Source of the DNA: Nitrospirota bacterium | GTDB taxonomy: Bacteria; Nitrospirota; Nitrospiria; JACQBW01 | NCBI GenBank assembly: GCA_016194305.1 | Contig: JACQBW010000006.1 | Span: forward strand, 1 to 64,000 | Direction: 5' to 3' | Length of the DNA stretch: 64,000 nucleotides | Shown: positions 30,696 through 59,035 of the stretch, one piece after another | How positions within the stretch are numbered: position 1 is the stretch's first letter | Layout: each line of letters begins with the position of its first letter | Notes under the pieces: model-generated | What the model was told of the DNA's origin: nothing | Database searches by the model: none | The model's input: only the letters and a program-made list of their open reading frames with translations | Translations under genes and position numbers: made by a program

Positions 30696-32102
30696 CTATT
30701 TCCAGCCGCCTCCCAGGGCCTTGAACAGATCGACTGTCGCGGCAAGCTGTGCACGCTGGGCCTCAATCCGGCTCAGCTCCGCATCCAAGAGACCCCGTTC
30801 CGCATCCAGAACATCCAGTTGGCTGGCCACCCCGTTATCATAACGGATCTTGGCAAGGTTTAGCGCACTCTCAAGTGCTTTTGCTCTCTTGAATTCCGCC
30901 TCCAGCGTCTCTCTGGATTTGCGCTGGGCAACCAATGCATTCAGCGTATCTCGAAAAGCATTTTGGATCGCCGATTGATAGGCCGCCAGCATTTCCCGCT
31001 GACGCGCTTTTGCTGCTTCGACATTCGACCCGGTGCGGCCGGCGTCAAAGATTTTCTGACTGACCGAAGAGGAGACCTGCCAGACCGCGGCAGGCGCGGA
31101 AAATAAATCTGTCAGATTGGGACTCTCTCCTCCCAGAAAACCGGTCAATGAAATCGAAGGAAAGTAGGCCGCCTTGGCCTGTCCAATCCGCGCATTGGCT
31201 GCTACAAGTTGCTGTTCCGCCTGCCGGATATCCGGACGAAACTCCAGCAGATCGGAAGGGAGTCCCGCGGGTACCGGAGGAGGTACGGTTAAGGCTTCTA
31301 GCGCGGAACCCCGTTCAACCGGTAAATTGACGATCTCTCGAGGCGTGCGGCCAAGGAGTACCGAGAGGGCGGTTTCCTGCTGGCCCAACTGGTTTTCAAG
31401 CGTCGGCAAAAGTGCCTCGGCTGCTGCAGTTTCCGCTTCCACCTGCCTGAGTTCAAGCTCAGAAGCAAGACCTGCCTCATATCTCAAGCGCTGCAAATTC
31501 AGGGAAACAAGACGGCTGGACAGCGTCGTTCGTGTCACCGCGACTTTTGCATCAAGCGCACGAAGATTAAAATAGCCGCGCGCGACCTCCGATATGAGCG
31601 CCAGCTTGACCGATTCACGGTTAAATTCCGTCGCGAGGAGATTGGCTCGCGCGGCTTCACTCGCACGCCGGTATTTCCCCCAAAGGTCAATCTCAAACGA
31701 AGTATTCAAGGTCGCTCGAATATTGTCATAAACCGGGTCGGTTCCCTGCGGTATCCCCAGTACACTCGACTGGCTCCCCCGGTTTCTCGACCGGATTCCG
31801 CTGACAGAGAAGTCGGGTAACTGGTCCGCCCGAGTCAATCCCAGGGTGCCGCGCGCTTCGTCCACTCTGGCAATGGCCAGTGCGAGATCCAAATTGTGCA
31901 AAAGTGAGTCTTCGACTATTTTCTCAAGACCAGGATCATGGTAAACTTTCCACCATTCCGCGGAGAGAGAATGGTTCGTCGTCTGTCCCGGCCACACCTC
32001 CGGAGTATCGATTTTTGGCCGGACATAGTCCGGCCCCAGGCCCATGCATCCGGAAAGAAGAAACGTCATGATCGTGATTTTAATGACTCGATTGAGTTTC
32101 AT
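30696..32102 (-). CDS. RND efflux outer-membrane factor (NodT/OprM family lipoprotein)
   Basis: 468 residues. Lipobox LLSGC (Cys19). Family beginnings GPDYVRPKIDTPEVWPG and WWKVYHDPGLEKIVEDSLLHNLDLALAIARVDEA in the first helices, and the duplicated OEP repeat (ATEFNRESVKLALISEVARGY; then LEFRPDIRQAEQQLVAANARIGQAKAAYFPS). Trimeric outer-membrane channel of a tripartite pump. Its start overlaps the pump gene stop by four bases, so it is the last gene of the marR-mfp-rnd-omf operon. C-terminus is normal. Confidence 0.94.
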   Translation of the reverse strand: MKLNRVIKITIMTFLLSGCMGLGPDYVRPKIDTPEVWPGQTTNHSLSAEWWKVYHDPGLEKIVEDSLLHNLDLALAIARVDEARGTLGLTRADQLPDFSVSGIRSRNRGSQSSVLGIPQGTDPVYDNIRATLNTSFEIDLWGKYRRASEAARANLLATEFNRESVKLALISEVARGYFNLRALDAKVAVTRTTLSSRLVSLNLQRLRYEAGLASELELRQVEAETAAAEALLPTLENQLGQQETALSVLLGRTPREIVNLPVERGSALEALTVPPPVPAGLPSDLLEFRPDIRQAEQQLVAANARIGQAKAAYFPSISLTGFLGGESPNLTDLFSAPAAVWQVSSSVSQKIFDAGRTGSNVEAAKARQREMLAAYQSAIQNAFRDTLNALVAQRKSRETLEAEFKRAKALESALNLAKIRYDNGVASQLDVLDAERGLLDAELSRIEAQRAQLAATVDLFKALGGGWK

Positions 32103-35100
32103 GACCCCCTCTCTTTCCGCTTGTGCTGTTCGATTTCATCTCTCATTTGGGAAGTTGACCGCTTTTCGGTCAGGTGACGGTCGGTCATGAGTTTAAAAAA
32201 CATCGGGACAAAGAATATCGCAAGGAAGGTTGCGGCCAACATTCCCCCCATCACACCTGTTCCTACGGAAATTCGCGCACCGGCCCCGGCACCTGTTGAA
32301 AAGGCTAACGGCGACACCCCTAGAATAAAGGCTAACGAGGTCATCAAAATCGGTCGGAAACGGAGCCGGGAGGCTTCCAGTGCCGCAGCAGAGGGAGAAA
32401 GTCCCTCCTGATTTTTAAGAAGCGCGTATTCGACGATCAGAATCGCATTCTTGGCGGCCAGACCGAGAAGGGTCACCAATCCAATCTGGAAATAGACATC
32501 GTTTGTTAAGCCCCTGATCCAAACTGCAGAGAGGGCCCCAAAAGTACCAAACGGGAGCGCCATCAAAACCGAAAACGGCAATGACCATCTTTCATATTGG
32601 GCGGCCAGAATCAAAAAAACCATCACGACCGCCAGACCCAATGCAAACGCGGAAGTCCCTGTCGCTTTCTTTTCCTGAAACGAGGCTCCCCCCCAGTCAT
32701 AGCTGAAATCCTTGGGAAGAACCTCTTTCGCAATCTTTTCGACCTCCTGAATCGCCTGTCCGGAAGAAACACCCCGCGCGCCTTGACCCATCAGTTTGAC
32801 TGAAGGGAGATTATTAAATCGATCGAGAGAATCGGGTCCGGATGTGTAGGAGACTTTTGCCAATGCTCGGACCGGAATCATCTCCCCTTTATCGGACCTT
32901 ACATAAAGATCTCCTATCGAATCCGGACGGTTTCGGAATGAAGGTTCCGCAGACATCAGCACTTCCCAGGTTCGGCCAAAGCGGTTAAAATCGTTGACAT
33001 AATATGAACCGAGCGTGGCAGAGAGGGTATCAAAAAATTCGTTGATCGGAACGCCCAATGCCTTGGTCTTCTCACGGTCCACATCGATAAATAACTGCGG
33101 GACATTCGATCGCCAGAGAGTCTGGACGCCTCCGAGTCTCGGATCCTTGTTGGCTGCCGCCAGAAACTGATCCTTCACCTGGGCCAGTCGCCCTGCGCCC
33201 CCTTCGCCCCGATTTTGAATGTAGAATTCAAATCCGCCGGCATTTCCCAAGCCAAATATCGGCGGCGGGGCAAATGCAATGACCAATCCCTCTTTGATGT
33301 AGGCTGTTTTCATAAAATAATCACCAATGAGCTGGTGCGTGTTTGTTTTTCGTTCGTCCCAGTGTTTTTGCGGTACAAAGATAGTCGCCGCGTTGTTTCG
33401 ATAACCACCACCGATGAAATCAAGCCCGGTAAAGGCGACTGCAAACTCGTTATCAGGATTGGATTGAATCGCTTTGACCACTTCTCCGACCACTTTATCG
33501 GTACGCTGTAACGTCGCTCCGTCTGGTAAAAATACCACGCCAATATAATAGCCCTGATCTTCATCCGGCACGAGACTGCCCGGTGTGATCTTCCAGAGCC
33601 CCACTGCAACCACCACCATGACGGCAAAGAGAGAAACTCCGATAACGCCATGGCGAATGATCCATGCGACGCCATCGCTGTAATGACCGGTCACACGGTG
33701 AAACCAGTTGTTAAACCAGGTAAAAAAACGGCCCGGCGTTTTATGTTCTCTCTTCAGAATCAGCGCAGTCAATGCGGGGGTGAGCGTCAATGCAACAATC
33801 CCGGAAAGGACGACCGCTATGGAGATGGTCACCGCAAACTGACGGTAGAGTTCTCCGGTCAATCCCCCCAGAAAAGCAATCGGGATAAATACCGCACAGA
33901 GCGTCAGAACAATGGCAACAATCGGGCCCGAGACTTCACCCATCGCCTTCAGCGCAGCTTCTCGAGCCGGCAGATGCTCTTCATGCATAATTCTTTCTAC
34001 ATTCTCGAGCACGACAATGGCATCATCCACGACGATACCGATGGCCAGGACCATGCCAAAAAGGGTTAACGTATTGATCGAGTAACCCAAAAGGAAAAGT
34101 CCGGCAAAGGTACCAATCAACGAAACCGGAACCGCGGCAAACGGGATTAACGTCGCCCGCCAGTTTTGAAGAAATAGAAATACAACCCCAAAAACCAGAA
34201 TCATCGCCTCGGCCAAAGTCTTGACCACTTCACGTATGGAAACCTTGACGAACCGTGTCGTGTCATAAGGAATGGAAAAGGCCAGACCGGGCGGAAACCG
34301 GCCGGAGATTTCCGTCATCGTCTTTCCGACTTCAGCGGCCACATTTAACGCATTGGCTCCGGGCTGAAGAAAGATTCCGATCAGCGTCGCTTCTTTACCA
34401 TTGACTCTGCCGATAAAATTGTAATCTTTTGAGGCGAGTTCGACCCGGGCGACATCTTTCAGTCGAAGCGCTGACCCGTCCGGGTTCGAACGGATCAAAA
34501 TATTCTCGAATTCCTTTACATCAGAAAGCCTCCCGCGCGTGGTCACGGAGTAAACCAGTTCCTGAGGACCTCCCGTAGGCGATTCCCCTACCTTGCCCGC
34601 TGCAAACTGGGCATTTTGTTCATTTAAAACCCTGAGGAGGTCGCCCGTGGTCAGTTTCAATTGGGCCATCCGGTCTGGCCTCAGCCAGATCCGCATCGCA
34701 TAATCCTTTGCTCCAAAAATTTGAACATTGGTTGTCCCTGGAATCCTTTTGATCGTATCCAGCACATTGAGCGTCACATAATTGCTTGTATAAAGGCCGT
34801 CAAACGTTCCGTCGGGTGAATAAAAGGCCAACACCTGCAAAAAAGCCGATGAGTTCTTTTCAACAGTCACCCCTTGCCGCCGGACTTCTTGAGGCAATCG
34901 CGACTCGACCTGTTTGACACGATTATTGACATTGATCGTTGCCTGGTCAATTTTGGTGCCAATGTCGAAGGTCACATTGATCGTAACGATGCCGTCCGAG
35001 GTCGAATTCGAACTCATATAGAGCATGTTTTCAACGCCGTTAATCTGAGTTTCAATCGGAGCGGCTACGGTCTGTTCGAGGACTTCTGCGGACGCGCCCG

Positions 35101-35251
35101 GATAAACAGCCCGAACAGTAACGATTGGAGGAGCAATCTCCGGATATTGTGCAACCGGGAGTGTTCGAATCGCGGACAAGCCTGCCAAAACCAAAAAAAT
35201 CGAGAGAACGACCGCAAAAATCGGGCGATCAATGAAAAATCGGGAGAGCAT
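32099..35251 (-). CDS. HAE1-family RND multidrug efflux pump (AcrB-like)
   Basis: 1050 residues, the usual AcrB length. N-terminus MLSRFFIDRPIFAVVLSIFLV, porter domains, the proton-relay helices with GIVVDDAIVVLENVERIM, the duplicated second half (ITPGSLVPDEDQGYYIGVVFLPDG) and a twelve-helix inner-membrane layout. Proton-driven export of hydrophobic compounds. 15 bases after the adaptor gene, overlapping the outer-membrane factor gene. All three pump parts are intact. Confidence 0.96.
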   Translation of the reverse strand: MLSRFFIDRPIFAVVLSIFLVLAGLSAIRTLPVAQYPEIAPPIVTVRAVYPGASAEVLEQTVAAPIETQINGVENMLYMSSNSTSDGIVTINVTFDIGTKIDQATINVNNRVKQVESRLPQEVRRQGVTVEKNSSAFLQVLAFYSPDGTFDGLYTSNYVTLNVLDTIKRIPGTTNVQIFGAKDYAMRIWLRPDRMAQLKLTTGDLLRVLNEQNAQFAAGKVGESPTGGPQELVYSVTTRGRLSDVKEFENILIRSNPDGSALRLKDVARVELASKDYNFIGRVNGKEATLIGIFLQPGANALNVAAEVGKTMTEISGRFPPGLAFSIPYDTTRFVKVSIREVVKTLAEAMILVFGVVFLFLQNWRATLIPFAAVPVSLIGTFAGLFLLGYSINTLTLFGMVLAIGIVVDDAIVVLENVERIMHEEHLPAREAALKAMGEVSGPIVAIVLTLCAVFIPIAFLGGLTGELYRQFAVTISIAVVLSGIVALTLTPALTALILKREHKTPGRFFTWFNNWFHRVTGHYSDGVAWIIRHGVIGVSLFAVMVVVAVGLWKITPGSLVPDEDQGYYIGVVFLPDGATLQRTDKVVGEVVKAIQSNPDNEFAVAFTGLDFIGGGYRNNAATIFVPQKHWDERKTNTHQLIGDYFMKTAYIKEGLVIAFAPPPIFGLGNAGGFEFYIQNRGEGGAGRLAQVKDQFLAAANKDPRLGGVQTLWRSNVPQLFIDVDREKTKALGVPINEFFDTLSATLGSYYVNDFNRFGRTWEVLMSAEPSFRNRPDSIGDLYVRSDKGEMIPVRALAKVSYTSGPDSLDRFNNLPSVKLMGQGARGVSSGQAIQEVEKIAKEVLPKDFSYDWGGASFQEKKATGTSAFALGLAVVMVFLILAAQYERWSLPFSVLMALPFGTFGALSAVWIRGLTNDVYFQIGLVTLLGLAAKNAILIVEYALLKNQEGLSPSAAALEASRLRFRPILMTSLAFILGVSPLAFSTGAGAGARISVGTGVMGGMLAATFLAIFFVPMFFKLMTDRHLTEKRSTSQMRDEIEQHKRKERGS

Positions 35252-35266
35252 GCGTCAAGTCCTTTC

Positions 35267-36442
35267 TTATTTTTTTTCAGAAACAGGGGAACCGGCGCCC
35301 GCCGTCGCGGGAACTGGGATTGCGGATGCCTCGGTGGTCTTTACCGGCGATCCCGGAGGGGCTTTAAAAAGTCCATCGACAATGACCTTGTCCCCTGGAT
35401 TGAGTCCGCCCGTGATAACCCATTCCTCTCCTGTCCAGTCTCCGACCTGGACCGGACGGGGTTCCACAATCCCTTTTTCATTCACAGTCATCACCATTTT
35501 GGTATTAGGTCCTTCTATCACAGAGCGCTGTGGAATAGCGATGGCCCCTGGACGAACCCCGCCGGAAAGTTTCACCCGCGCAAACTGACCGGGACGAAGA
35601 ATGTGCTTCGGATTCGAGACCACAGCACGGGCCTCGATGGTGCCAGTACTGGGATTGACCCGCACATCGGTAAAGTCCACTTTTCCGGAGCCGGAGTATT
35701 CGCTTCCATCAGCCAATTTCAAGGTCACGTCGAATTTTCCGCCTTTGGGAAGTTTAAGACGTCCTTCGGACACAGCACGGGTAAATTTCAGGTGCTCGGC
35801 CTCCGTAAAACTAAAAATAACGTTGATGGGATTGATCTGCGAGATCGTCGTCAGAAGCGTCTGCTGGGCTTCAACGAGGCTCCCTTCCGATTTGAGCGCT
35901 CGACTGGTAATGCCTGAAATAGGGGCTTCGACATGGGTGTAAGAGAGATTGAGCTTCGCCTCGGTCACCGCCGCTTCTGCGGACTTCAAATTCGCTGAGG
36001 CGATCTGTTCGGATGAAATGGCATCGTCATAATCTTTCTGACTGACCGCCTTGGCTTCCCAAAGCGGCTTCAGCCGGCCTGCGTTGCGGGACGCCTGGAA
36101 AAGAGTGGCCTGAGAACTGGCCAGATCAGCATCCGCTTTGGCCAAAGCCGCTGCGAAGGGTGCAGAATCAATTTCAAACAACTTCTGACCCGCCTGAACC
36201 GTCGAACCCTCTCTGTAGTTCCAATGCTCCAGGATGCCGGAAACCCGCGGCCGTACCTCGACCTCCCTCACACCAGCAATTTGCCCTACGTATTCAAATG
36301 TGGCTGGAAGATCGCGTGCAGAAAGTGTGACAATCGCAACTTCCGGAAGTTGCGGTGGAGCCGCGGAACGGGCTTGCTGGCTACATCCCAGAGTCCCCAA
36401 TATCATCATTCCCAAGAAAATCCTGACTCCGTTGAGCTTCAT
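35267..36442 (-). CDS. RND periplasmic adaptor (AcrA-like, lipoprotein)
   Basis: 391 residues. Lipobox TLGC (Cys20). Lipoyl/barrel-sandwich halves VRPRVSGILEHWNYREGSTVQAG and LSYTHVEAPISGITSRALKSEGSLV flank a helical hairpin; the beta-barrel and membrane-proximal domains follow (RPGQFARVKLSGG, GDWTGEEWVITGGLNPGDKVIVDG). Links pump and channel. Ala/Pro-rich tail. Second gene of the operon, 68 bases after marR. Confidence 0.95.
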   Translation of the reverse strand: MKLNGVRIFLGMMILGTLGCSQQARSAAPPQLPEVAIVTLSARDLPATFEYVGQIAGVREVEVRPRVSGILEHWNYREGSTVQAGQKLFEIDSAPFAAALAKADADLASSQATLFQASRNAGRLKPLWEAKAVSQKDYDDAISSEQIASANLKSAEAAVTEAKLNLSYTHVEAPISGITSRALKSEGSLVEAQQTLLTTISQINPINVIFSFTEAEHLKFTRAVSEGRLKLPKGGKFDVTLKLADGSEYSGSGKVDFTDVRVNPSTGTIEARAVVSNPKHILRPGQFARVKLSGGVRPGAIAIPQRSVIEGPNTKMVMTVNEKGIVEPRPVQVGDWTGEEWVITGGLNPGDKVIVDGLFKAPPGSPVKTTEASAIPVPATAGAGSPVSEKK

Positions 36443-37053: not shown

Positions 37054-38358
37054 TCAAAAATGATAAGAGATTTCGGTATAACTTGCGGTATTTTTGCTCA
37101 AACTCCCAAAAAACGAGTCATCCGGACCTCGATAAATATCTGCGGCAACGACTATTTTCCATTGGTCGGTGATGGCATAGGTCGCCTTTGGGCGTATAAG
37201 GGTGTCATGGCGTGTCCAGGTTCCAATTCCGGCGAGTTCCGCTTCAAGCGTTTCATTAAACCATTTGTTGCTTACCCTTATCGAAGCACCTTCCGAAATT
37301 CGGTCCAGCTGGTTGTTGAAGAGCGCTTCCTCCGTGGCGACGGAGCGGGCAATGGGATCTGCTATACCTCCGGGATCTTGATAATCTAAGACCTCTCTAA
37401 AAATAAACTGGAGGTTAATATTGAGGTAGTCCAGGAATGTCCGCTCTCCTCCGAGGACGAAAAAAAGAAAGGGACTTTTTATAAACGGATTCGAACTGTC
37501 GGAATTTTCAGTAAGCGTATAGGCGGCCTCCCCTCTCAATCCGAATCTTTCGACTGCCGCCGCGCCATCGATACCGAAGGTCTGGATTCGGTGGTGGCTC
37601 AGGAGAATGTTCAATGGCGGGGGTTGAATGGAAAGGACGGACAAGGAATCAAGAGAAAGATCGGGATCAAGATCGAACCCATCATAGTAGGATATGGAAC
37701 CATCCCAGTTTCTCCCGGTTGATTCCACTTTCACACCCCATTGCCCAACGGCATTGTCAGGCTCTTGTTCGCGAAAGGTCAACTGTGCAGAAGATTGGGG
37801 TAAGGGAAGGTGATTGGGCTTAAAGAAGGGGATCCAGTAACCTTGAACATAGTAAGCTCCAATATTCGTCGAGCCCTTTAATCCAATTGAACCGAATCGT
37901 TGGTCATTTTCGTCCGGAAATAAAAGTGTGTAATCCCGGGGACTTAAATGATCCGTCGGATTGACCTGATCCGCTCTTCCCCAGACAATGATCTGTTTTC
38001 CAATCCGGAAATCAAACGGGCCGGCGGCCAAATCAATATAGCCTTCCCGAAGCATACTCATCGTTTCGTTTCCCTGGAATAAATCGGAGTTAATGATCCA
38101 CCCTTCGAAATGGCCCTTTGCAAGGGAACCGATGGCAGGGGCGGTTTTGATCCAGAGTGAAGCGGTCTTCAGATCCTCCCGGTCATCAAGACTTCTTGAG
38201 CCGGTCCAATAACCTCCCTGGGCCGAGCCGGTAACGGGAAAGGGGGGTACTTCTTCACCCCTTGCCTGGAAGGAATACAAAATAAATAGAATTAAAGGAA
38301 CCCAACGGAACCATCTCCTAGTCCTCTTTTTCAAGATACCGGATGGTAAAGAACTCAT
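37054..38358 (-). CDS. DUF1302-like outer-membrane beta-barrel protein
   Basis: 434 residues. Signal peptide (LILFILYSFQARG/EE), then a barrel of amphipathic strands with the DUF1302-type segment LREGYIDLAAGPFDFRIGKQ and IIVWGRADQVNPTDHLSPRD, ending TEISYHF with a C-terminal Phe. Relatives occur beside MMPL-type transporters and are suspected channels for hydrophobic compounds. Its first 41 bases overlap the end of the transporter gene, so translation is coupled. No ribosome-binding site is evident inside the overlap and a later start (MSSLPSG is the first ATG) cannot be excluded. Confidence 0.8.
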   Translation of the reverse strand: MSSLPSGILKKRTRRWFRWVPLILFILYSFQARGEEVPPFPVTGSAQGGYWTGSRSLDDREDLKTASLWIKTAPAIGSLAKGHFEGWIINSDLFQGNETMSMLREGYIDLAAGPFDFRIGKQIIVWGRADQVNPTDHLSPRDYTLLFPDENDQRFGSIGLKGSTNIGAYYVQGYWIPFFKPNHLPLPQSSAQLTFREQEPDNAVGQWGVKVESTGRNWDGSISYYDGFDLDPDLSLDSLSVLSIQPPPLNILLSHHRIQTFGIDGAAAVERFGLRGEAAYTLTENSDSSNPFIKSPFLFFVLGGERTFLDYLNINLQFIFREVLDYQDPGGIADPIARSVATEEALFNNQLDRISEGASIRVSNKWFNETLEAELAGIGTWTRHDTLIRPKATYAITDQWKIVVAADIYRGPDDSFFGSLSKNTASYTEISYHF

Positions 38359-41300
38359 CTTTAATTCCCTGGTTGCTTTTAAAATTCTCTAAGTGAATGA
38401 TTGAACGATGGCCGCTGTCGAGATTGAGAGCTTCCATTTTCATGGCCTGCCATTTTCCTTTCGCCTGATCGACCAGCTCGACCTCGCCGAATTGAAAAGA
38501 TTTGTAGGGTTGACCCGAAGGGTCCCAGGTTTCACCTTTGATCATCACGAAATTATCTTTTCGTATCCAGCTGAGTCGTTTTGAATAGCCATTTGTCGAC
38601 CGAACCAGATCATTCTTGGGCAAGGATTCAATGAGATAACAGGCCTGGTGATCGATTTCTTCTTCCTTAAGAATCTGATGATGCCAGTCGCTCACTTTAT
38701 AACCGATCACATCTCCGTAGGAGAAGTCCGTTCCCATAAAGCTCTCTTTCTTGTTGGATGAAACGAGCCTGCGTACCTTCCTGAGAGCCGGAAGATAGAC
38801 CCAGATTTCATCCTCCTGATCAGCATGTTCGATGATGAGGGTCGAGGTCCCTTTGACATCGGAAGGCGAATTAAACCGGGTCATTCGCATATTGTCAATT
38901 CCGTTGGATTGTAATTTTGTCGTTCCAAAAGTCTTTCGAATCCGTTCCTGTCCCCCTTTGTTGACTAAAGTGAAGGTCGCATTCGAAACCGAATCCTGGA
39001 CTTTGGCGATTTTGAAGTTTTTTTCCATGATTTCCTCACCCGACAATTCAGCCGCAGTTGCCTGGGGAATCAAAAGGAAATAAAATCCGGCCGCAAGGAG
39101 AATCGCCACGGTAATTTCTTTGGACCGGATTGCACGGGCGCGTTTCTGATTAAAAATGAAATCCGGCTTCAAAGTATAGACCAGGGCAGGCAATATGGTG
39201 AGCGCCGCAAAAGAGCTGAAAAACATGGCCGCCGCGGTCAGCATGCCAAACCAGAGATGAATATAAAATCCAAATGAAAAAAGGAGCACGCCATATCCAA
39301 TTGAAACGGCCGTCGCGACGTAAAGGACTCCTTTTCCGGCCGTGGTCAGCGCTATTTGAAAGGCCCGATCGATGTCTCCTCCCCGTTCAATCTCTTCTCT
39401 TAACCGGTAAATCAGATAAATTGCGTAATCGGTGCCGATCCCAACCGTCATGGCCAGAATCACCGACGTCCCGATATTCAATCGAATGCCACCATAACCC
39501 ATGATCGCGAAATTACCCACCGCAGCTAACAGGAGGGGAACCAATACAAAAAAGCCGGCAAAGAATGAGCGAAAAACCAGAGACGAGATTAGATAGATGA
39601 CACCACCAATTTGCAATACATTAAGAATTTTTCCCTGAACGATGACCTCATTCATGGCGGCACCCGAGGGGGCTCCGCCTCCAACACTGACTCGTACCCG
39701 TCCGTTTTGTCTAAACGCCGTCGACATAAAAGGATTGAGTTTACTGACAAGTTTTTGGAGATAAACGCTGTTATCGGTCTTCAAGAAACCCTTTATTTCG
39801 GCATTCTGGTATCCATTGTCGACATAACTGTCAAAATCAAGGGGATCGCCCGACATGGAATAAAGGAGAAGATACTGGGAAATGAGTTCCTGGCTATCAG
39901 GTATGACGGCAAATTTCGGATCATCTCCGTTCATCGCCTGGTTCATCCGCTTGATGAAGTCAGCCAGCGATATCGTCTTCCCGACATACGGCTGTTGATT
40001 GAGGAATTGTTCTGTGTCGTCCATGGCTTTGAGAATTTTGGGGTTCTTGATCGCATCTTCCTCTCCTCCTTCTACCAGGATGTGAAAATCAGCCGTTCCT
40101 CCCAGTTGTTCATTAAGTCGGGCATCTTCTTTTTGAAAATCGAGATTTTTGGAAAAATATTGCTTGTTGGCATTTTCAATGGTCACCCGAAACATTCCAA
40201 CAAGGCCAACAACCAGGAACATTCCGGCAAACAGGTATATTTTCCATCTCGACGGTGATGTAATCCATTGGGCAAACGACGCTGTTACGCGATCCCAAAT
40301 TCTCTCTTCTCTTTCCCGGATTTCTTCCCTTTCTTTTGGAGGCGGAAGCAGAGAACGAAGCGAAGGAATAAAAGTCATTTCAAGAATCAACGCGCATAAA
40401 ATACCGAGTCCGGTAAAAATCCCAAATGTCTTGATGACTGTCATTTTAAATACGATCAGCGAGAAGAAACCGAGAACAGCGACCATTCCGGCAGTCAGCA
40501 TCACATATCCGATGCGCAACATCGATTCGGATATTGCCTTTTGACTTGCCTCTTCCGGTGTCAGGAGCGTGGTCTGACGTAGTCGATGGTATTCTTCGTA
40601 ATATCGCTTGAGGATCTGAACGGCATGTCCTGCAGCCACCGCCAAAATGAGAATGGGCGTACTTGCATTAAAGGCGTCCATCGGGACACCTGAAAGCCCC
40701 ATAATTCCCACCCCCCAGACGACAGCCAGCAGAGAAGTCACGAGCGGGAGTATGAGTCCTTGAAAGGTCCGAAAGGCCTCATAATGAATCAATCCGATTA
40801 ACAAAACGGCCAGCGGAAACAAGAAGCCCATTCTTTGCGAGTAACGTTCAAATTCAGCGCCATAAACCGGCCATCCCCCTACAGCGATATCTACCGTTGT
40901 ATCGCGTTGGGGATCCACAATCGCTCTGATTTTACCCATGATCTCCTGGTAACCATTTTTAGGATCTTTGAGTTCGATAATAATGGATGCGGTTCTCTCG
41001 TCCTTTGAAATAATCAAGTTATAGAAAATAGGATTGGACCGGATCCGATTGCGGAGTGTCTCGAGTGCTTCCGGGCTTTCAGGAATTTTTTCATCGAGAA
41101 ATGGTTTAACTTCCATTCCGTCTGCCGTCCCTTTTATCCATTTGGCTTTCGAGGCGGCGATCGAGAGGACATTCTCCTTGACGATTCCCTGCGTTGACAT
41201 CAGACTTGTGGTCATTTCTTTTACTTTTTCCAAAACATCGTGTTGGAATGCATCGCCCCGATTCGGGGTCACGCCAATAACAATAATGTTTTTGGAACTA

Positions 41301-41479
41301 AACCATTTTTCAATTTTGTTCGTCGTGATGACATAAGGATGGTCCTGGGGCAGATTGGTATTCGGATCGATGACGACATGCAGATTGCGAATCTGAAAAC
41401 CCAAAAAGAGCGTGACCAGAATGGTGATGGCGATAACGAACTTTCGGTATTTTAAAATAAATTCTATATACGTTTTCAC
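38318..41479 (-). CDS. MMPL/RND-type transporter fused to a LolA-like lipoprotein-sorting domain
   Basis: 1053 residues from GTG 41479, chosen because AAGGAG lies six bases upstream; the frame is open a further 14 codons. Residues 1-~795 form a hydrophobe exporter of the RND superfamily: TM1 VIAITILVTLFLGFQI, two periplasmic porter domains, two blocks of membrane helices (DAFNASTPILILAVAAGHAVQILKR in the first; VILAMTVGIGTDYAIYLIYRL in the second, both split around Gly-Asp motifs). Then comes a hydrophobic segment (ITVAILLAAGFYFLLIPQATA) that looks like a former signal peptide, and a ~240-residue outer-membrane lipoprotein-sorting-like domain (IWVYLPALRKVRRL, GTDFSYGDVIG). These two parts are normally separate adjacent genes. 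Probably moves lipid or another hydrophobic ligand to the periplasm or outer membrane, with the DUF1302-like barrel as partner. Confidence 0.88.
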   Translation of the reverse strand: MKTYIEFILKYRKFVIAITILVTLFLGFQIRNLHVVIDPNTNLPQDHPYVITTNKIEKWFSSKNIIVIGVTPNRGDAFQHDVLEKVKEMTTSLMSTQGIVKENVLSIAASKAKWIKGTADGMEVKPFLDEKIPESPEALETLRNRIRSNPIFYNLIISKDERTASIIIELKDPKNGYQEIMGKIRAIVDPQRDTTVDIAVGGWPVYGAEFERYSQRMGFLFPLAVLLIGLIHYEAFRTFQGLILPLVTSLLAVVWGVGIMGLSGVPMDAFNASTPILILAVAAGHAVQILKRYYEEYHRLRQTTLLTPEEASQKAISESMLRIGYVMLTAGMVAVLGFFSLIVFKMTVIKTFGIFTGLGILCALILEMTFIPSLRSLLPPPKEREEIREREERIWDRVTASFAQWITSPSRWKIYLFAGMFLVVGLVGMFRVTIENANKQYFSKNLDFQKEDARLNEQLGGTADFHILVEGGEEDAIKNPKILKAMDDTEQFLNQQPYVGKTISLADFIKRMNQAMNGDDPKFAVIPDSQELISQYLLLYSMSGDPLDFDSYVDNGYQNAEIKGFLKTDNSVYLQKLVSKLNPFMSTAFRQNGRVRVSVGGGAPSGAAMNEVIVQGKILNVLQIGGVIYLISSLVFRSFFAGFFVLVPLLLAAVGNFAIMGYGGIRLNIGTSVILAMTVGIGTDYAIYLIYRLREEIERGGDIDRAFQIALTTAGKGVLYVATAVSIGYGVLLFSFGFYIHLWFGMLTAAAMFFSSFAALTILPALVYTLKPDFIFNQKRARAIRSKEITVAILLAAGFYFLLIPQATAAELSGEEIMEKNFKIAKVQDSVSNATFTLVNKGGQERIRKTFGTTKLQSNGIDNMRMTRFNSPSDVKGTSTLIIEHADQEDEIWVYLPALRKVRRLVSSNKKESFMGTDFSYGDVIGYKVSDWHHQILKEEEIDHQACYLIESLPKNDLVRSTNGYSKRLSWIRKDNFVMIKGETWDPSGQPYKSFQFGEVELVDQAKGKWQAMKMEALNLDSGHRSIIHLENFKSNQGIKDEFFTIRYLEKED

Positions 41480-41603
41480 GTGATACTCCTTACAACAGGT
41501 AACCCGCCAAGTCCAGTTCACTGACCTGTCTCATCAACGATTTGACAGAAGAACTGCTCTAAGTGACTTCGTCCTGATGTTCTGGAATAAAACTATAACA
41601 AAA

Positions 41604-41739: not shown

Positions 41740-44700
41740 TCATGGACATTTCAATAATGTCTTAAGACTTTTTGCCGCTAAAATAAGAAGATTCGCCTGA
41801 TTGGGTGTCAGCGTCTTTCCAGAAGCCGCCTGGACAGTTGAAATGAATTGATTCAGGATCTGGCAACCTGCTTTGCTTGTATTTCCTGCCTTATCCGTAG
41901 CCAATGCATTGAAGACTTGAGAGAGTCCCGAGCCTTCCGCCGCGATAACGATCGGATTGGGGCAAGTCGAAACACCGGACAGAGGATCTGAACAGGTAAA
42001 GGTCACCTTTACGGTACCTTTATCCCCCTTCTTAGGATCCGGGACAATGGTATATGCCGTGTTAATGACAGGCGGCGTCTTATCCAAATTAATCGTCACC
42101 GAGGTGGAAGCACTGTTTCCGACATTGTCGACCGCAGTACCTGAAATCAGTTGGCCCGCCCCCTCATTGGAAACGGTCACCGGTCCAGGACACGAGGCAA
42201 TTCCCTGACCGGTATCGGAACAGGTAAATGTGACCACGGTATTCGAACGGATCCAGCCGGACGCATTGGCGAGCTGGGAAACATTCGCCTGGATTGAGGG
42301 GGGAGGGGTAGTAATTAGGCGGGTAATCACAAAAGGTGAAAGACTCGAAGTGACGCCGCAGACTTGATGGTTGGCAGTATCCAGCGAAGTGGTAATATTG
42401 CTCCAGACGCCATTTCCCGAATTATGCAATAGAACAATCTGGGATCCTGCCGGAAAAAAAGAAGGGTCATAGGTATTGCAAATGGATACATTCCCCGAAA
42501 AAACTGCATCCGTTGCAATGTTGAAATAAGCGGATCGAGTACTATCAAATCCGGAAGGAAGAGGAGGGAGTCCCGACTTGGGCGGAAGAGGATTAACCAC
42601 TGTATTACCAGCCTGGATCACATTGTCATAGAGAAGTGAGAAAAATGGGTACGGATTCACGAGGACACCCAATCCGAATTTAGTCCTCCCGTTTGAAATG
42701 ACCAGTTCCGATACCATGCCACCTGCGGCGTGGGATTGAATGTGACAATGGAATAACCATCGTCCAGTCGGATCACCAAAATGTGTTGTGGATGGATCAA
42801 GGGCGTCAAGTGTTTCTTTCACCAGATCCTTAATGGCGACCTTAAAAAAGAGAGAGACATGGGGCGGGACGCTAACGACATCTACAAACTCTGTTCCTCC
42901 GTAATTCCAACGCTTCCCGGCAGCGGTGAAATAAAGGGGCTGCATTGAAAATCCATGCAAGTGAAACGGATGATCATCATCTGTATCGTTATAGACCTCC
43001 CATAGAATGACGTCGTTGAGATTAGCATATTTGGCGGATGGCGGATGAGGGAGCGTATGCAGCCAGGAGAAGTCGTTAATACCGGGTTCGCCATTGGCGC
43101 TATAAGTGAACGTCGATCTTGCACTACCGATAAATTGTCTATTATCAGTTCCCAGTGGAGCCACTGCGTTCGCCTCGGACAACATGACCTGGCCCTCGGA
43201 CAAAGCAAGAGGTATTAAACGGGAATTCGATGTGAATTGAAAATTCAAAAGAGGAAAGCTTGGATCAATCGCCTCGGTTGGCATTATTGCCGGATTGAGA
43301 TCCGGAGTCGGCCTTAAAAGTCTGGTCAGCATCAGAGATTGAATCTGGCCAGTCGAGCCGACTGGAATGATCACCACATGGGCCCGCTGGCCCGGCGCCA
43401 AAACGATAGAACCCTGTGGATAACCCAGATCGATCGTCCCACCTGAAGGATCTGTATTGGCTACGCTACCCCCTTCGATTCGAACGCTGTTTAACAATCC
43501 ACCTTCTCCCCCAATTCGATAAATCGTGCCGGGAAAATCGAACCGATAATAAGCCTGAGTCGTTTCATTGATTAATTGCAACCGAATCCCATCTCCTGAA
43601 TTCAGCTTAACGATTTCTCCCTTGGCTTCATTCTTAGCAGCCGATACCGTAACATCCGTAAGCGGTACTACTTTCTCAGTAGCGGGAAGAACTCCGCTGT
43701 CAATGAGGCTCTGCAAGGGTGTGATCTGACCTGCTCCGGCATAATCGTCAACAACCAAAACACCTGCAAGACCTGCCGCCATCTGGTCGAAGGCTAATGT
43801 GGAATGAGGATGGTAAAAAAAGGTGCCTGCCCGGGGAACGAAAAAATCATATAAAAAATCATCTCCAGGCATGACAGGAGATTGAGTCACATGCGTGCCA
43901 TCACTGGCATTGTTCCCTTCAATACCATGCCAATGGATCGTTGTATCATTGTAAACATCAGGCATCCAGGAATAGGGGACTGCGGGAAGCCGGTTCTGAA
44001 AATGAACAATGACATGATCCCCTTTTTTTACCCGGATCGTAGGCCCTGGCACAGAATTATTATATCCATAAACCGTTTGCCCATTTTGCACCTGCTCGGC
44101 AGTCAAAGTCGTTTCAAATACATTCGGACTCGTTGTGTTATTGCTTGCGTCCGTGGTTGAGATTACGGGGAAATAGGAGAGTTTTGCGACAAAGGCATCC
44201 TGGTAGCCTCCACCGTAAGTTCCCTGGACAGGGTTAGTCAAAGAAAAATTAGTCGCAGAAGTTCCTCCGGTCAAGTATGCATTCCCTGCTGAATCCACGG
44301 CAATGCTGGAGCCAAAGTCCTGGTAACTTCCTCCAAGAAAGGTGGCGTAACCCAGGGCAGAAGCATCCGCATTCAGCTTCGCCACAAACACCGCTTCTCC
44401 TGTCAGCGTGTGTTGAATCGGAAGTCCCGCTATGGGGAAATTGGAAGAACTGGTTCCTCCCGTCACATAGGCATTACCTGCGTCATCCACTCCGATGCCA
44501 TAACCATTGTCTTCGCCGCTGCCGCCCAAATAGGTCGAGTAGATCAAGTCCGACCCCGAGGAATCAAACGGATGGATCTTCGCGACAAATACATCTGTCC
44601 CCCCGCCAAATGTACCTTGAAAAGAAGTCCCTGCCAGAGGGAAGTTCGTCGATCGGGTGGAACCTGTCATATAAATATTGTGAGCGCCATCGAGGACAAT

Positions 44701-46404
44701 ATGCCAGCCTATGTCATAGTCGCTTCCACCCAGAAAAGTGGAATAGATTTCGGCGGACCCGGCCGCATCGAGTTCCGTCAGGAAGGCATCAAAATTTCCA
44801 CCAATTTGGTCCTGAATGTGGCGGCTCGTTATGGGAAAGTTAACGGATTTTGTTTCGCCAGAGACAAATGCATTGCCCGAAGCATCTATCGCTATGCTGT
44901 GCGCATCATCATAATCACTCCCTCCCAGATAAGTCGAGTAATCCAATGCCGTCCCCGCGGCATTGATCTTTGTCACAAAGGCATCCAGAATGCCGCCGCC
45001 GTACTGAGCCTGAAACGGGTTAACGGTAGGAAAATTAAGGGAACGCGTTTCCCCGGTCACATAAGCATTTCCGGAAGAGTCGATTGCGATGCCCGTGGCA
45101 TCATCGTCATCGTTTCCTCCGAGATAGGTGGAATAAATCAGCGAATAACCCGTAGAATTGATCTTCGCGATGAATGCGTCCGAGTATCCGCCCCCGTAAG
45201 TGCCCTGCACGGGACTGGCCATGGGGAAATCGGTTGAACTGGTAATTCCCGTGACATAGGCATTTCCGGCGGAATCGACTGATATGCTAGCGCCATAATC
45301 ATCCGCACTCCCTCCCAAATAAGAGGAGTACACCAGGGCGGTACCCGTTGAATTAAATTTGGCCACAAAAGCGTCCTGGTGAACCCCAATTCCGCCTAAT
45401 CTAAACTGGAAAGGGTGTCCCGCTAATGGAAATACCGTAGAAGTCGTCGCGCCTGTCACATAGATATTTCCTCCGGCGTCCAGAGCAATTGCCAAACCCA
45501 TATCATCGATATTCCCCCCAAGATAGCTGGAATAATTCAATACCGGATCAATGGTGAGGGGTTGTTTTTTATCAAAATTGCCCACTTCAAATGAATATGC
45601 AAATTTGCCCGATTCTCGTAATATTTTGAATTTTCCTCCCAGTTCGATCCGTTTACCGTCGATTTCCTGATACACAAGGGGCTTTTTCTGAAGGATTTTG
45701 CCATCATTTAATTCAATTTCAAGATCCCCATTTTTTGTTAAAACCAGATTCTTGATCCCTTCGTAGGCCAGTTTTATTTTTGAAAGGTCACCTCCCGGTT
45801 TCACGATAATGTCATACTCCATCTCACTGTTGTTACCATAGAATTTAATATCGATACCGGGATAGATTTCTCGGTAAACAATTTTCTGGTAGGATGACAA
45901 ATTTCTTTTCCACTTTTCAGGATCATTGCCGATAAAATAATTGACCTTTCCCTCCTGCTCACCTTCGGCAACGATCTGGAATTTTTTATTTGCTTGCAAC
46001 GGAACCAGTTTAAGGAAAGTGACCTGGTTGCCGTCGTTTGATCCATCAACCCGATCTTCCGCCATTCGGTTTTGCGTCACGATTTGGCTCCCATTGGCCA
46101 GATTAAAATAAATGCCCTCTTGCGTGAAGTAAGTAGAATGACCTTTCCCCTTTTCAAAAAAGGCAACTTCTGGTTGTACAGTTCCATTATTTTGGATGAA
46201 AGAAAGTGGAAGCTTGCCATAGGATTCGTCGAGCTGAACTTTCTTGACCTTTTTTGAGTTCTGAAGGGGCCTGTCTTTTGACTCAGGCATGACATGTGAT
46301 CCTGGCATAGCGAACGCTGGAACGGCGGACCAGATCCATGGTGCCGCAATCCCGATAAGCATTAATAAAAAACGCTGTTTATATAAAACCATTACTCGAC
46401 TCAT
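41740..46404 (-). CDS. SBBP-repeat beta-propeller fused to a multicopper oxidase
   Basis: 1554 residues with signal peptide (IGIAAPWIWSAVPAFA). Residues ~55-290 are the domain that usually precedes SBBP repeats (SFIQNNGTVQPEVAFFEKG). Seven SBBP repeats follow at ~295-755, each with a Y(S/A)xxLGG strand and (G)NxYVTGxT, consistent with a seven-bladed propeller. Residues ~760-1260 are a complete multicopper oxidase with all four copper motifs: HWHG (~823), FYHPHS (~863), HPFHLHG (~1146) and HCHIQSHAAGGM (~1220), including the axial Met. Two Ig-like domains with paired Cys (VVTFTCSDTGQGIASCPGP; VKVTFTCSDPLSGVSTCP) and a helical tail end it. Secreted or surface-bound metal or phenol oxidase; substrate unknown. 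Single gene with its own terminator. Confidence 0.88.
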   Translation of the reverse strand: MSRVMVLYKQRFLLMLIGIAAPWIWSAVPAFAMPGSHVMPESKDRPLQNSKKVKKVQLDESYGKLPLSFIQNNGTVQPEVAFFEKGKGHSTYFTQEGIYFNLANGSQIVTQNRMAEDRVDGSNDGNQVTFLKLVPLQANKKFQIVAEGEQEGKVNYFIGNDPEKWKRNLSSYQKIVYREIYPGIDIKFYGNNSEMEYDIIVKPGGDLSKIKLAYEGIKNLVLTKNGDLEIELNDGKILQKKPLVYQEIDGKRIELGGKFKILRESGKFAYSFEVGNFDKKQPLTIDPVLNYSSYLGGNIDDMGLAIALDAGGNIYVTGATTSTVFPLAGHPFQFRLGGIGVHQDAFVAKFNSTGTALVYSSYLGGSADDYGASISVDSAGNAYVTGITSSTDFPMASPVQGTYGGGYSDAFIAKINSTGYSLIYSTYLGGNDDDDATGIAIDSSGNAYVTGETRSLNFPTVNPFQAQYGGGILDAFVTKINAAGTALDYSTYLGGSDYDDAHSIAIDASGNAFVSGETKSVNFPITSRHIQDQIGGNFDAFLTELDAAGSAEIYSTFLGGSDYDIGWHIVLDGAHNIYMTGSTRSTNFPLAGTSFQGTFGGGTDVFVAKIHPFDSSGSDLIYSTYLGGSGEDNGYGIGVDDAGNAYVTGGTSSSNFPIAGLPIQHTLTGEAVFVAKLNADASALGYATFLGGSYQDFGSSIAVDSAGNAYLTGGTSATNFSLTNPVQGTYGGGYQDAFVAKLSYFPVISTTDASNNTTSPNVFETTLTAEQVQNGQTVYGYNNSVPGPTIRVKKGDHVIVHFQNRLPAVPYSWMPDVYNDTTIHWHGIEGNNASDGTHVTQSPVMPGDDFLYDFFVPRAGTFFYHPHSTLAFDQMAAGLAGVLVVDDYAGAGQITPLQSLIDSGVLPATEKVVPLTDVTVSAAKNEAKGEIVKLNSGDGIRLQLINETTQAYYRFDFPGTIYRIGGEGGLLNSVRIEGGSVANTDPSGGTIDLGYPQGSIVLAPGQRAHVVIIPVGSTGQIQSLMLTRLLRPTPDLNPAIMPTEAIDPSFPLLNFQFTSNSRLIPLALSEGQVMLSEANAVAPLGTDNRQFIGSARSTFTYSANGEPGINDFSWLHTLPHPPSAKYANLNDVILWEVYNDTDDDHPFHLHGFSMQPLYFTAAGKRWNYGGTEFVDVVSVPPHVSLFFKVAIKDLVKETLDALDPSTTHFGDPTGRWLFHCHIQSHAAGGMVSELVISNGRTKFGLGVLVNPYPFFSLLYDNVIQAGNTVVNPLPPKSGLPPLPSGFDSTRSAYFNIATDAVFSGNVSICNTYDPSFFPAGSQIVLLHNSGNGVWSNITTSLDTANHQVCGVTSSLSPFVITRLITTPPPSIQANVSQLANASGWIRSNTVVTFTCSDTGQGIASCPGPVTVSNEGAGQLISGTAVDNVGNSASTSVTINLDKTPPVINTAYTIVPDPKKGDKGTVKVTFTCSDPLSGVSTCPNPIVIAAEGSGLSQVFNALATDKAGNTSKAGCQILNQFISTVQAASGKTLTPNQANLLILAAKSLKTLLKCP

Positions 46405-53748: not shown

Positions 53749-54381
53749 TTAAGGCTGAATCAAACCTTGGCGAATGGCATAACGAACAAGTCCGACCGTT
53801 CCATGAATATCGAGCTTATCCATAATCCTTCCCCGGTGGGATTCGGCGGTTTTTGGACTGACCCCCAAAAACTGGGCAATTTCCTTTGTGCTGTTTCCTT
53901 CCGCCACCAATTGAAGGACCTGACGCTCTCGGGAGGTAAGAGGATCTGAAGGGAGTTCTTTTTTATCTAAAAAAGCTTCTACCACTATCTTGGAAATTCC
54001 CGGACTCAAATAAACCGATCCGCGGGAAACCTGGTCTATAGCCTGGAGAAGATCTTCCCCGGCCTGTTGTTTCAGGACATAACCGCTAATTCTGGCCCGT
54101 TGGGCCTCCAGAACATAAAGGTCTTCGTCATGTATGGTTAGAATAATGGTTTTTGTCTTCGGACAGACCCGATGAATCTCCTTCGCCGCATCAATACCAT
54201 TTAAAATTGGCATTGAGAGATCCAGAATGGCAATATCCGGTAAATACTTTTGTGCCATCTGGATTGCTTCATCTCCAGACGCGGCCTCTGCGATGATCTG
54301 GAATCCTTTCCTCTCCAGATAAGCTTTCACTCCTTCCCGAAAAATACCGTGGTCATCGGCTAGGAGAATATCCAGACCCAT
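53749..54381 (-). CDS. NarL/FixJ-family response regulator, end of stressosome operon
   Basis: 210 residues. Receiver domain with acidic pair DD (9-10), Asp54 in AILDLSMPILNG, Thr in ILTIHDED and Lys in YVLKQQAG; LuxR-type HTH at about 145-205 (LTSRERQVLQLVAEGNSTKE, then VSPKTAESHRGRIMDKL). Overlaps the kinase gene by 29 bases, so it is the cognate regulator. Last gene of the rsbR...RR operon and its probable transcriptional output. Target genes unknown. Confidence 0.92.
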   Translation of the reverse strand: MGLDILLADDHGIFREGVKAYLERKGFQIIAEAASGDEAIQMAQKYLPDIAILDLSMPILNGIDAAKEIHRVCPKTKTIILTIHDEDLYVLEAQRARISGYVLKQQAGEDLLQAIDQVSRGSVYLSPGISKIVVEAFLDKKELPSDPLTSRERQVLQLVAEGNSTKEIAQFLGVSPKTAESHRGRIMDKLDIHGTVGLVRYAIRQGLIQP

Positions 54382-55330
54382 TCCGTGCCTCCCGTGGAAT
54401 AAAAATAAACAATCCTGTACCTTGGCCTGACATGGATTGAATTTTTAAAGTCCCGCCATAACTCTTAAGCAGTTCACGAATCCCTGTTAACCCCAGTCCT
54501 TTTTCTTCCTCGCAATCGGAAAGTGTTGTTTCCTTCATTCCAATACCATCATCTTGAATCGAACATTGAATTCCCTGATCTTCCTGGTACACACGAATGA
54601 CCACCTCCTTTGCGCAGGCATGTCTTACGACATTTGTCAGGGCCTCCCGCACAATCCGATAGATCAAAGTTTCAACTAGGGGCTGGAGACGTCCCTGCAA
54701 TAATCCTTTAACCGGGATCACCAATCCTGATCGTTTCGAGACACCACGAGCCAGGAATTCTAAAGCCGGTAGAAGCCCCAGATCATCTAGAACGGTCGGT
54801 CTTACCTCGTGGACAAGACGTCGCAAATGCTGTTCACTGAGCTGAAGGAGATTTCTTATTTTTTGAAAACCTTCTTGAAAATGCAGCGGTACCTGGCATT
54901 CAACTTCCTTCAGCGCCAGGTAGGTTGCAGCAAGAAGCTGTCCGGCCTCGTCGTGAAGGACGTGTGTGATCCGACGGGTCTCTTCTTCCAGCATCTGATT
55001 CATCCTGCGAAGGCCCGCGTTCGAATCCCGAAACGCACGATGAGTAATTTCAAATGAAGAAAGGCTTTCTAAAAAGAATTCGGCTCCCTTAAGAATGCGA
55101 TCGACTTCCTCAGGTCTCAGATTGCCCGGCAATGTTTTTCTAACCGCTTCCTTGTAAATGGCAACAAGATCCAGCACACCGATGTCCGACGAGACCGCTT
55201 GGCGTCCCAATTCATAGCCGCGTCCCAGAGCGCCTTCTCCGACGCCTTCCAGATAATCCTGAAATGCTAAAAAATAGCGCTCATGGAAATCATTTAGGGT
55301 TTCTTTCATTACCTGGGCTCTGATTTCCAT
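54353..55330 (-). CDS. Histidine kinase with RsbU_N-like N-terminal domain
   Basis: 325 residues (or 318 from ATG 55309, whose A is shared with the upstream stop as TAATG). The first ~100 residues are the helical domain shared with the neighbouring GGDEF protein and with the kinase at 59705: YFLAFQDYLEGVGEGALGRGYELGRQ and GVLDLVAIYKEAVRKTL in its first half, EFFLESLSSFEITHRAF at its end. This matches the pattern of the RsbT-binding N-domain of RsbU. A HisKA_3 helix with His126 (VLHDEAGQLLAATYLAL) and a HATPase_c domain (DDGIGM, GLGLTGIRELL) follow. Cytoplasmic, no membrane helix. Likely controlled by RsbT and phosphorylates the next regulator. Confidence 0.9.
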   Translation of the reverse strand: MEIRAQVMKETLNDFHERYFLAFQDYLEGVGEGALGRGYELGRQAVSSDIGVLDLVAIYKEAVRKTLPGNLRPEEVDRILKGAEFFLESLSSFEITHRAFRDSNAGLRRMNQMLEEETRRITHVLHDEAGQLLAATYLALKEVECQVPLHFQEGFQKIRNLLQLSEQHLRRLVHEVRPTVLDDLGLLPALEFLARGVSKRSGLVIPVKGLLQGRLQPLVETLIYRIVREALTNVVRHACAKEVVIRVYQEDQGIQCSIQDDGIGMKETTLSDCEEEKGLGLTGIRELLKSYGGTLKIQSMSGQGTGLFIFIPREARNGSGYSPSR

Positions 55331-56565
55331 TCTATCGAAGGTTTTCTATAAGAACTGTCGCAGTCCGGAGAATATATTTTATAACCGCCATGAACTTTCT
55401 TTGCGGCATACATAGCGGCATCCGCCCGGCGCATGAGGAGATCCGCAGTTGTCCCGTGCCAGGGGAAAAGAGCAATTCCGATACTTGCACCAATCTCAAA
55501 TCGTGCAGATTCAACAGAAAAAGGCTGCTCAATAATCTCCAGTATCTTGTTTACTGCAAGTTCCGTCCCTTCTATCGAAGTTGAGGGCAACAGTACTGCG
55601 AATTCGTCTCCTCCAAGACGCGCCAAAGTATCGGATTCACGTAACACTGAATGCAATCGAGGTCCCAGCTGTTGAAGAACTGCGTCGCCTTTGTCATGTC
55701 CATAATCGTCGTTAACTTCTTTAAAACGGTTTAGATCGAGTAAAAGTAGCGCCGTTGTGGAGAGATCTCGTCGACCAGTCTGCAGGGCATGTTGAAGACG
55801 ATCTTGAAACAGGAGACGATTGGGTAACCCGGTCAGATTATCGTGATAAGCGAGATGGGTTAACACTTCCATCTGTTTACGTTCAGTTAGATCAAGTGTC
55901 ACTACCAGACAAATCCTTTCCTGACCTTGTTCAATAAGCTGGAAATGCTCTTCCACGGGGTATTCTGACCCGTCTGATTTACAATGTTGGGTCTGCACAA
56001 CCAGTTTCTTTTTTTGCCCTTCCAGCAAAGGATAAAGCAATGATTTGAACGCAGTCTCGTCATATCCCAAGATCAAATCGAGAGGACTCATTTTCTGGAC
56101 GTTCTCCAGGGAACAGCCGAAATTTCGAAGGACACGCGCGTTGACATAAAGAAAGTGAAGCGTTTTCACATCAAACATATAAATTTCGTTTGAACTCGCA
56201 TCGAGAACATTCAATAGCCTAATCAACTCTTGATTCTGACGTTTAAGTGTTTTATGGAGATCGGTAAGGGTATTATAAGCTTCATGCAAGCCGCGCTGAA
56301 CCATGTCAAAGGGAGAAAGAATCTCTGCAAAAAATTCAGTCACTCGAATCATTTTACGGCTTTTATGGGATTCTCGCGTCTCGGATAGAATTGCTCCCAG
56401 CGCTTCTTCATGAACGGTGATCATTTCTAACACACCGATACGGTCGGCAACAGCCTTACGACCCAACTCATATGCCTGTTTTAAAGCTTCTTCCTTTCCA
56501 TGGGAAAGGTAGTCCTTTAAAGCCAAAAGATAGGGCTCGCCAATGTTTCGCGAAAGATCATTCAT
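55309..56565 (-). CDS. RsbU_N-like / PAS / GGDEF diguanylate cyclase
   Basis: 418 residues. N-terminal helical domain (YLLALKDYLSHGKEEALKQAYELGRKAVADRIG in two helices, EFFAEILSPFDMVQRGL) of the RsbU_N type, a PAS domain at about 120-240 (NEIYMFDVKTLHFLYVNARVLRNFG), and a GGDEF domain with RLGGDEFAVLLPS intact and the inhibition site RESD five residues ahead. Cytoplasmic. It begins inside the stop of the PP2C gene (ATGA) and runs into the kinase gene, so all are co-translated. Inferred role: c-di-GMP synthesis switched by RsbT released from the stressosome. Confidence 0.92.
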   Translation of the reverse strand: MNDLSRNIGEPYLLALKDYLSHGKEEALKQAYELGRKAVADRIGVLEMITVHEEALGAILSETRESHKSRKMIRVTEFFAEILSPFDMVQRGLHEAYNTLTDLHKTLKRQNQELIRLLNVLDASSNEIYMFDVKTLHFLYVNARVLRNFGCSLENVQKMSPLDLILGYDETAFKSLLYPLLEGQKKKLVVQTQHCKSDGSEYPVEEHFQLIEQGQERICLVVTLDLTERKQMEVLTHLAYHDNLTGLPNRLLFQDRLQHALQTGRRDLSTTALLLLDLNRFKEVNDDYGHDKGDAVLQQLGPRLHSVLRESDTLARLGGDEFAVLLPSTSIEGTELAVNKILEIIEQPFSVESARFEIGASIGIALFPWHGTTADLLMRRADAAMYAAKKVHGGYKIYSPDCDSSYRKPSIEWKSEPR

Positions 56566-57191
56566 ATGGATTGCTCCATATAGCGAATGATCAGCACCAA
56601 CGCGTCATCCATTGGATTTCTGTGTCTTGCAAGAATCTGAGAAGCCAATTGTTGGGGCGGAATATTTTGCGGGAGCTCTTCGGCAAAAGTGTCCTTAATT
56701 CCATCTGTTGCAAGAATCAACTGATCTCCCGGCGAAATCGAAACGGAAGTGGTTCTTAAAATAGGAAGTTTATAGCCCACTGTTCCGGCATTGAGCAAAA
56801 TCCATTCAGTTCGAGGATTTGCATTCTGATTTGTGTGGATTAACAGCCCTTCGACATTTCCCACAGCCAGCCACTCTATTTTGGTCCTTTTCTGTTCTTG
56901 TTTTCCCAGTCCCTGAAATGACACCATGGTCATGGCGACACCACGCATTCTCAGTAAATTCCTGTGACACCGGTTGATCAGACTGGCAAGAGGTTCGTCC
57001 GGATGATTTCCAAGCGTTTTAACAGCAGCTTCAGCCGATTCGGCCGCTTCACGTCCATGACCCAGCCCATCTACAACCGCGGCCAGCGCTCCTTCATCAA
57101 ACAATGAAACCAGATGACGATCCCCGGATTCGCACTGGCCGTCCATCGCTTTGAAAGCCACTCCCCAATCGATATGCCTAAATCCGCTCAT
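56562..57191 (-). CDS. rsbX: RsbX-like PP2C/SpoIIE phosphatase
   Basis: 209 residues, one small SpoIIE-type PP2C domain. Metal-binding acids are visible in AAVVDGLGHGREAAESAE and LILATDGIKDTF, and the last motif in MDDALVLIIRY. In Bacillus, RsbX removes phosphates from RsbS and RsbR and resets the stressosome; position right after rsbT supports the same role. No regulatory domain is attached, as in RsbX and unlike RsbU. 33 bases after rsbT. Confidence 0.88.
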   Translation of the reverse strand: MSGFRHIDWGVAFKAMDGQCESGDRHLVSLFDEGALAAVVDGLGHGREAAESAEAAVKTLGNHPDEPLASLINRCHRNLLRMRGVAMTMVSFQGLGKQEQKRTKIEWLAVGNVEGLLIHTNQNANPRTEWILLNAGTVGYKLPILRTTSVSISPGDQLILATDGIKDTFAEELPQNIPPQQLASQILARHRNPMDDALVLIIRYMEQSI

Positions 57192-57224
57192 TGATCCAGT
57201 AAATCCCCGTCAAATTGTGTTTTC

Positions 57225-58922: not shown

Positions 58923-59035
58923 GGTTTTTCTCCTCATTGAAAGATTGTGATAAACAGTTCTTATGGATTCTATCGGATTTTACAAAAAAGGGTATCAGCC
59001 GGAGACTGATTCTGATGTAGGAATTAGTGAGATTG

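Follow-up and report, generated by a model that had tools for sequence, protein, structure and literature searches.

Among the closest known counterparts of the enzyme considered here are the three-domain laccases and metallo-oxidases, such as McoC from C. jejuni (3zx1), the laccase from T. thermophilus (2xu9), and CotA (1gsk). They have the same fold and copper motifs as its multicopper oxidase (MCO) part, but are ~17–22% identical to it over the fold alignment and carry no fused scaffold. The scaffold has relatives of its own in Nitrospirota, which carry DUF7948 and SBBP repeats (e.g., L010, L011, and L151 among the loci compared), are 42–52% identical to it in the front half, and possess up to seven blades. 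However, these proteins have other kinds of C-termini, and the MCO motif was present in none of those seen. We found no paper on SBBP in combination with a multicopper oxidase, on DUF7948, or on a laccase fused to an NHL repeat.

Here, we describe a gene that joins the two parts in a 64,000-nucleotide stretch of Nitrospirota DNA (designated as the window; assembly GCA_016194305.1, contig JACQBW010000006.1). We favor, with a probability of roughly 0.7, the reading that its product is a secreted modular laccase-type oxidase built by domain shuffling. What is new is how known domains are combined; the fusion does not represent a new kind of system. Should it prove real and active, it would be without precedent as a DUF7948-SBBP propeller linked to a complete MCO, within the scope of the genomes and papers searched.

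Architecture of the fusion protein

The gene is an uninterrupted ORF on the minus strand of the window (46404→41740), with an ATG start, 1554 codons, and no internal stops; all protein features given below are encoded on this strand. The product has a mass of 165 kDa (161.7 kDa minus the putative signal peptide) and consists, in order, of a putative signal peptide, DUF7948, seven SBBP blades, a three-domain MCO, and two Cys-paired Ig-like repeats. The first-pass annotation had described a single frame with a leader domain, seven SBBP repeats, an MCO, and an Ig-like tail; its coordinates were exact, and Pfam and the motifs agree with it. It had also called the protein a giant, secreted enzyme of ~160 kDa. 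The size holds for the ORF of 1554 aa but is not exceptional, since related loci hold MCOs of 1100–1600 aa; the mass was borne out as well, while export is suggested by a likely signal peptide. This putative Sec signal peptide (residues 1–32, ...SAVPAFA|MPG; 46309..46404) was recognized by eye on the translation, and has a basic start, a hydrophobic core, and an A-x-A end, with no twin Arg.

DUF7948 occupies residues 69–288 (45541..46200; PF25778, E 1.2e-62, 212 bits vs. a cut-off of 27) and is followed by the SBBP β-propeller at residues 291–745 (44170..45534; PF06739, E 1.9e-48). Six SBBP stretches exceed the Pfam cut-off singly, and the seventh blade is evident on visual inspection, with a spacing of 64–68 aa; the blades start at residues 291, 359, 424, 489, 554, 622, and 686, giving one full propeller. 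In a model of residues 50–1245, the strands are grouped in fours for six blades, and both ends apparently close the seventh. The domains fold in this longer model (pLDDT 73.8, pTM 0.49), which does not fix the placement of the propeller relative to the MCO. The protein thus has what characterizes an SBBP + DUF7948 protein: repeats above the Pfam cut-off that amount to one propeller and stand behind DUF7948. Such a front half is common in the phylum: at E 1e-60, it was found in 55 of the 396 genomes sampled, among them that of the window; it is locally up to ~55% identical to those of phylum relatives, and the C-terminal modules behind the scaffold vary. As for other SBBP genes, the sole one found in the window genome (G000:C37; L070:5743-7830) encodes a 696-aa protein with SBBP and CARDB and without an MCO, and the genome of bacterium 3_bin.21 (G510) has more than 15 frames of SBBP-like proteins.

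A phmmer search of the propeller against the PDB gave no match, and a profile search gave only weak matches, to designed Pizza propellers and PknD. The Foldseek list of the longer model includes the propeller enzyme CylK (7ron/7fh6), presumably matched to the propeller part. CylK differs in that the match is one of fold alone (21–22% identity), is absent from the sequence-profile PDB search, and involves a protein without an MCO. Because the match was by fold only, we rejected CylK as a functional guide to the propeller.

The C-terminal tail (residues 1246–1554; 41743..42669) has matches in many proteins of the class, among them one of 1637 aa from a same-family genome (L066), with 43% identity over residues 1255–1509. 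It carries two FTCSD...CP repeats with the pairs Cys1395/1405 and Cys1471/1481, in Ig-like repeats that span residues ~1363–1520; judged by sequence, these agree with the two disulfide-type Ig-like domains noted earlier. The tail has eight Cys residues (the four in the repeats and four further ones), and none occurs upstream of the copper Cys.

The multicopper oxidase domain

The MCO spans residues 746–1240 (42685..44169), where Pfam detects Cu-oxidase_3 at residues 774–887 (E 2e-26) and Cu-oxidase_2 from residue 1121 (E 8e-15). All four copper motifs were identified by motif reading and alignment: HWHG (residues 824–827; 43924..43935), HPHS (residues 865–868; 43801..43812), HPFHLH (residues 1145–1150; 42955..42972), and HCHIQSHAAGGM (residues 1219–1230; 42715..42750), the last of which contains the type 1 Cys1220 and the axial Met1230. 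Their His and Cys residues are invariant or nearly so across 28 aligned sequences. The middle MCO domain (PF00394) was not detected in the protein by the Pfam sequence search; nonetheless, an AlphaFold model made with 28 sequences shows the full three-domain fold (mean pLDDT 85.1, pTM 0.88), with low confidence in model segments 298–302, 348–356, and 364–372. The top Foldseek matches of this model were C. jejuni McoC, the T. thermophilus laccase, Pediococcus laccases, and CotA (E 1e-33 to 1e-30). The domain therefore has the features of a three-domain laccase-like MCO, namely four copper motifs with the type 1 Cys and its His and three predicted cupredoxin domains. Both the intact motifs, including the axial Met, and the confident model uphold the first-pass description of a complete MCO.

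In a phylogenetic tree, the domain diverges early, on a long branch (1.17), close to the base of a clade with strong support (100/100) that includes members from Nitrospira, Acidobacteriota, Bacteroidota, and proteobacteria; it does not group among the Nitrospira enzymes. The subfamily is widespread across many phyla.

Occurrence and genomic setting

The search for the same fusion covered samples only, i.e., 270 genomes of the class, 396 genomes of the phylum, 347 genomes from the phylum to which an acidobacterial locus belongs, and 77 named loci drawn from many phyla; no other MCO of the subfamily joined to a DUF7948-SBBP propeller was found in them. A whole-protein scan of the named genome collection gave no relative, and a scan with the MCO alignment was used in its place. 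The MCO part was matched in 47 of the 270 class genomes at E 1e-12. The class members of the subfamily are mostly stand-alone genes of ~650–720 aa, mainly from Nitrospira, one of 814 aa having FG-GAP repeats; SBBP motifs occurred in the same frame as the MCO in none of the class loci read. Searching the phylum sample with the MCO alignment revealed no further fusion, and a pattern search for an MCO frame with SBBP motifs was negative for all 77 named loci, the verrucomicrobial L088 (see below) coming nearest to an exception. The 347 genomes contained two strong MCOs (957 and 1023 aa), both without SBBP. Fourteen genomes behind the named loci were also queried with the complete protein; in several, SBBP proteins and an MCO were both present, at separate sites in every case.

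Two apparent fusions were rejected: a 1331-aa Nitrospira frame (G121), in which an unknown base (X in the translation) truncates an MCO and the frame continues into the next gene, that of a propeller, and a 1371-aa frame of G141, which represents two neighboring genes (667 and 703 aa). The first-pass annotation had stated that SBBP propellers and MCOs normally occur in separate proteins. This is true of SBBP, which was encoded separately in every other genome examined, including those with both, but not of propellers at large, for which there are NHL and FG-GAP fusions and adjacent YVTN genes. Since the fusion was found in a single genome, its upkeep by selection cannot be inferred from comparison.

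The gene adjoins another fusion at 38318-41521 (minus strand), where an MMPL transporter and a LolA-like/DUF1329 protein form one 1067-aa ORF; in a same-family genome, they are two adjacent genes of ~799 and ~281 aa. In a sister genus, the MMPL/LolA block is present together with a 435-aa gene resembling the neighbor of the fusion, and the giant gene is absent beside them. Farther away (54353-60715, minus strand) is an RsbU_N-domain cluster, in which two histidine kinases and a GGDEF protein have this N-terminal domain.

Proposed function and comparison with known systems

Domain shuffling within this lineage is the simplest reading of where the parts came from: a DUF7948-SBBP scaffold that is frequent in the phylum precedes a laccase-type three-domain MCO, and an Ig-like tail shared across the class follows it. 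Given the conserved copper sites and the established chemistry of MCOs, the enzyme probably oxidizes its substrate with reduction of O2. After export, which we infer along with copper loading, activity, and the role of the propeller, a reduced substrate would donate electrons singly to the type 1 copper of the enzyme, whose ligands by motif are His1145, Cys1220, His1225, and the axial Met1230. The electrons would then cross the His-Cys-His bridge to a trinuclear site formed by His824/826/865/867/1148/1150/1219/1221, where O2 would be reduced to water. The use of oxygen is plausible in view of a bd-type oxidase family member encoded in the genome; the sole COX1 match there is a frame of 139 aa that stays below threshold. 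The most likely role of the propeller and Ig repeats would be to tether the enzyme to the surface of the cell, to the matrix, or to a partner. The substrate oxidized by this axial-Met enzyme is most likely organic or a metal ion.

A more specialized role, that of a dedicated cell-surface Mn(II)/Fe(II) oxidase with the propeller as a mineral or substrate platform, appears unlikely. It is in keeping with the best fold match, C. jejuni McoC, which is titled a metallo-oxidase in the PDB, and with the facts that MCOs oxidize Mn(II) in heterotrophs and that members of Manganitrophaceae, in the same phylum, have two MCOs each (PMC9040806). For a part in Mn lithotrophy, the latter enzymes would need to pass electrons to a periplasmic carrier and not directly to oxygen (PMC9040806). 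However, MCOs of this subfamily are found widely, in many phyla, and no metal-oxidation marker was found beside the gene, whose neighborhood comprises an MMPL/LolA and DUF1302 block as well as an RND efflux operon. These RND/HlyD efflux genes (window 30696-36442), together with weak matches to the CopA and CueO models, could instead point to a cuprous oxidase of the CueO/CopA type that confers copper tolerance from a scaffold. We regard this as quite improbable: the scores are far below the NCBIfam cut-offs (78.7 vs. 479 bits for CopA and 62.2 vs. 525 bits for CueO), no Met-rich insert was found in the MCO (8 Met in 500 aa), the pump could be placed only in the general ACR_tran family, and a further MCO candidate lies elsewhere in the genome (C1:77711, a 547-aa frame). 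The MCO also missed the cut-offs of the NCBIfam laccase (TIGR03389, 72.4 vs. 559 bits) and ascorbate oxidase (TIGR03388, 79.2 vs. 615 bits) models.

That only one of the genomes searched carries the fusion might also raise the suspicion of an assembly or binning chimera of an SBBP gene and an MCO gene, which we consider highly improbable. Short-read misassembly is unlikely because the gene contains no N, its longest exact repeat is 12 nt, its longest exact stretch in common with the region of the genome's only other SBBP gene is 15 nt, the propeller and MCO are joined in frame at a domain border, and neither GC3 (0.43–0.52) nor codon use (r 0.89–0.93 vs. other genes of the window) varies much from one segment to the next. 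The tail shared with the same-family protein likewise argues against a chimera.

If real and active, the fusion hints at a recurrent association of one MCO subfamily with propellers. Other relatives bear FG-GAP repeats (fused to the subfamily MCO at a Nitrospirales locus), dockerin, Big_3_5, or NHL and BACON. Such an association would make it possible to test concretely how SBBP and YVTN propellers serve an enzyme. We tentatively raise the rather unlikely proposal, with the fusion as a Rosetta-stone case, that subfamily MCOs and secreted propellers (SBBP, YVTN, NHL, and FG-GAP) constitute an unrecognized cross-phylum extracellular oxidase system, in which the propeller would deliver substrate or electrons or anchor the MCO; the recurrence may reflect either a functional link or the mere modularity of secreted proteins.

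The most striking case is a conserved two-gene unit of Nitrospira, in which a YVTN-propeller gene lies directly downstream of the subfamily MCO in 18 of 18 named loci. The downstream protein (~700 aa) has YVTN-type repeats, which score below the NCBIfam beta_rpt_yvtn cut-off, and matches the surface-layer protein 1l0q in the PDB; by eye, it has a cupredoxin-like N-terminal stretch, and the protein gave no Pfam match (L060:910-3018; loci among L098-L139). The stand-alone Nitrospira MCO (~665 aa) is 36–38% identical to the fused one and resembles it in subfamily, in having all copper motifs, and in its association with a propeller, here encoded downstream. The unit differs in that it consists of two genes, uses a YVTN/surface-layer propeller rather than SBBP, and is without DUF7948 or an Ig tail; no match to the YVTN-propeller gene was obtained in the window genome. 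A verrucomicrobial protein (L088, 1612 aa) is similar in combining an MCO of the same subfamily with β-propeller repeats in one polypeptide. It is encoded by the first of two large tandem MCO genes (671-5506 and 5545-9102 of that locus; 1612 and 1186 aa), and its whole-protein SBBP score is 36 bits vs. a cut-off of 20.5, with no single stretch passing. Unlike the fusion described here, the verrucomicrobial protein has its MCO first, a propeller of the NHL type, no DUF7948, and BACON repeats in place of the Ig tail, and it belongs to a different branch of the clade.
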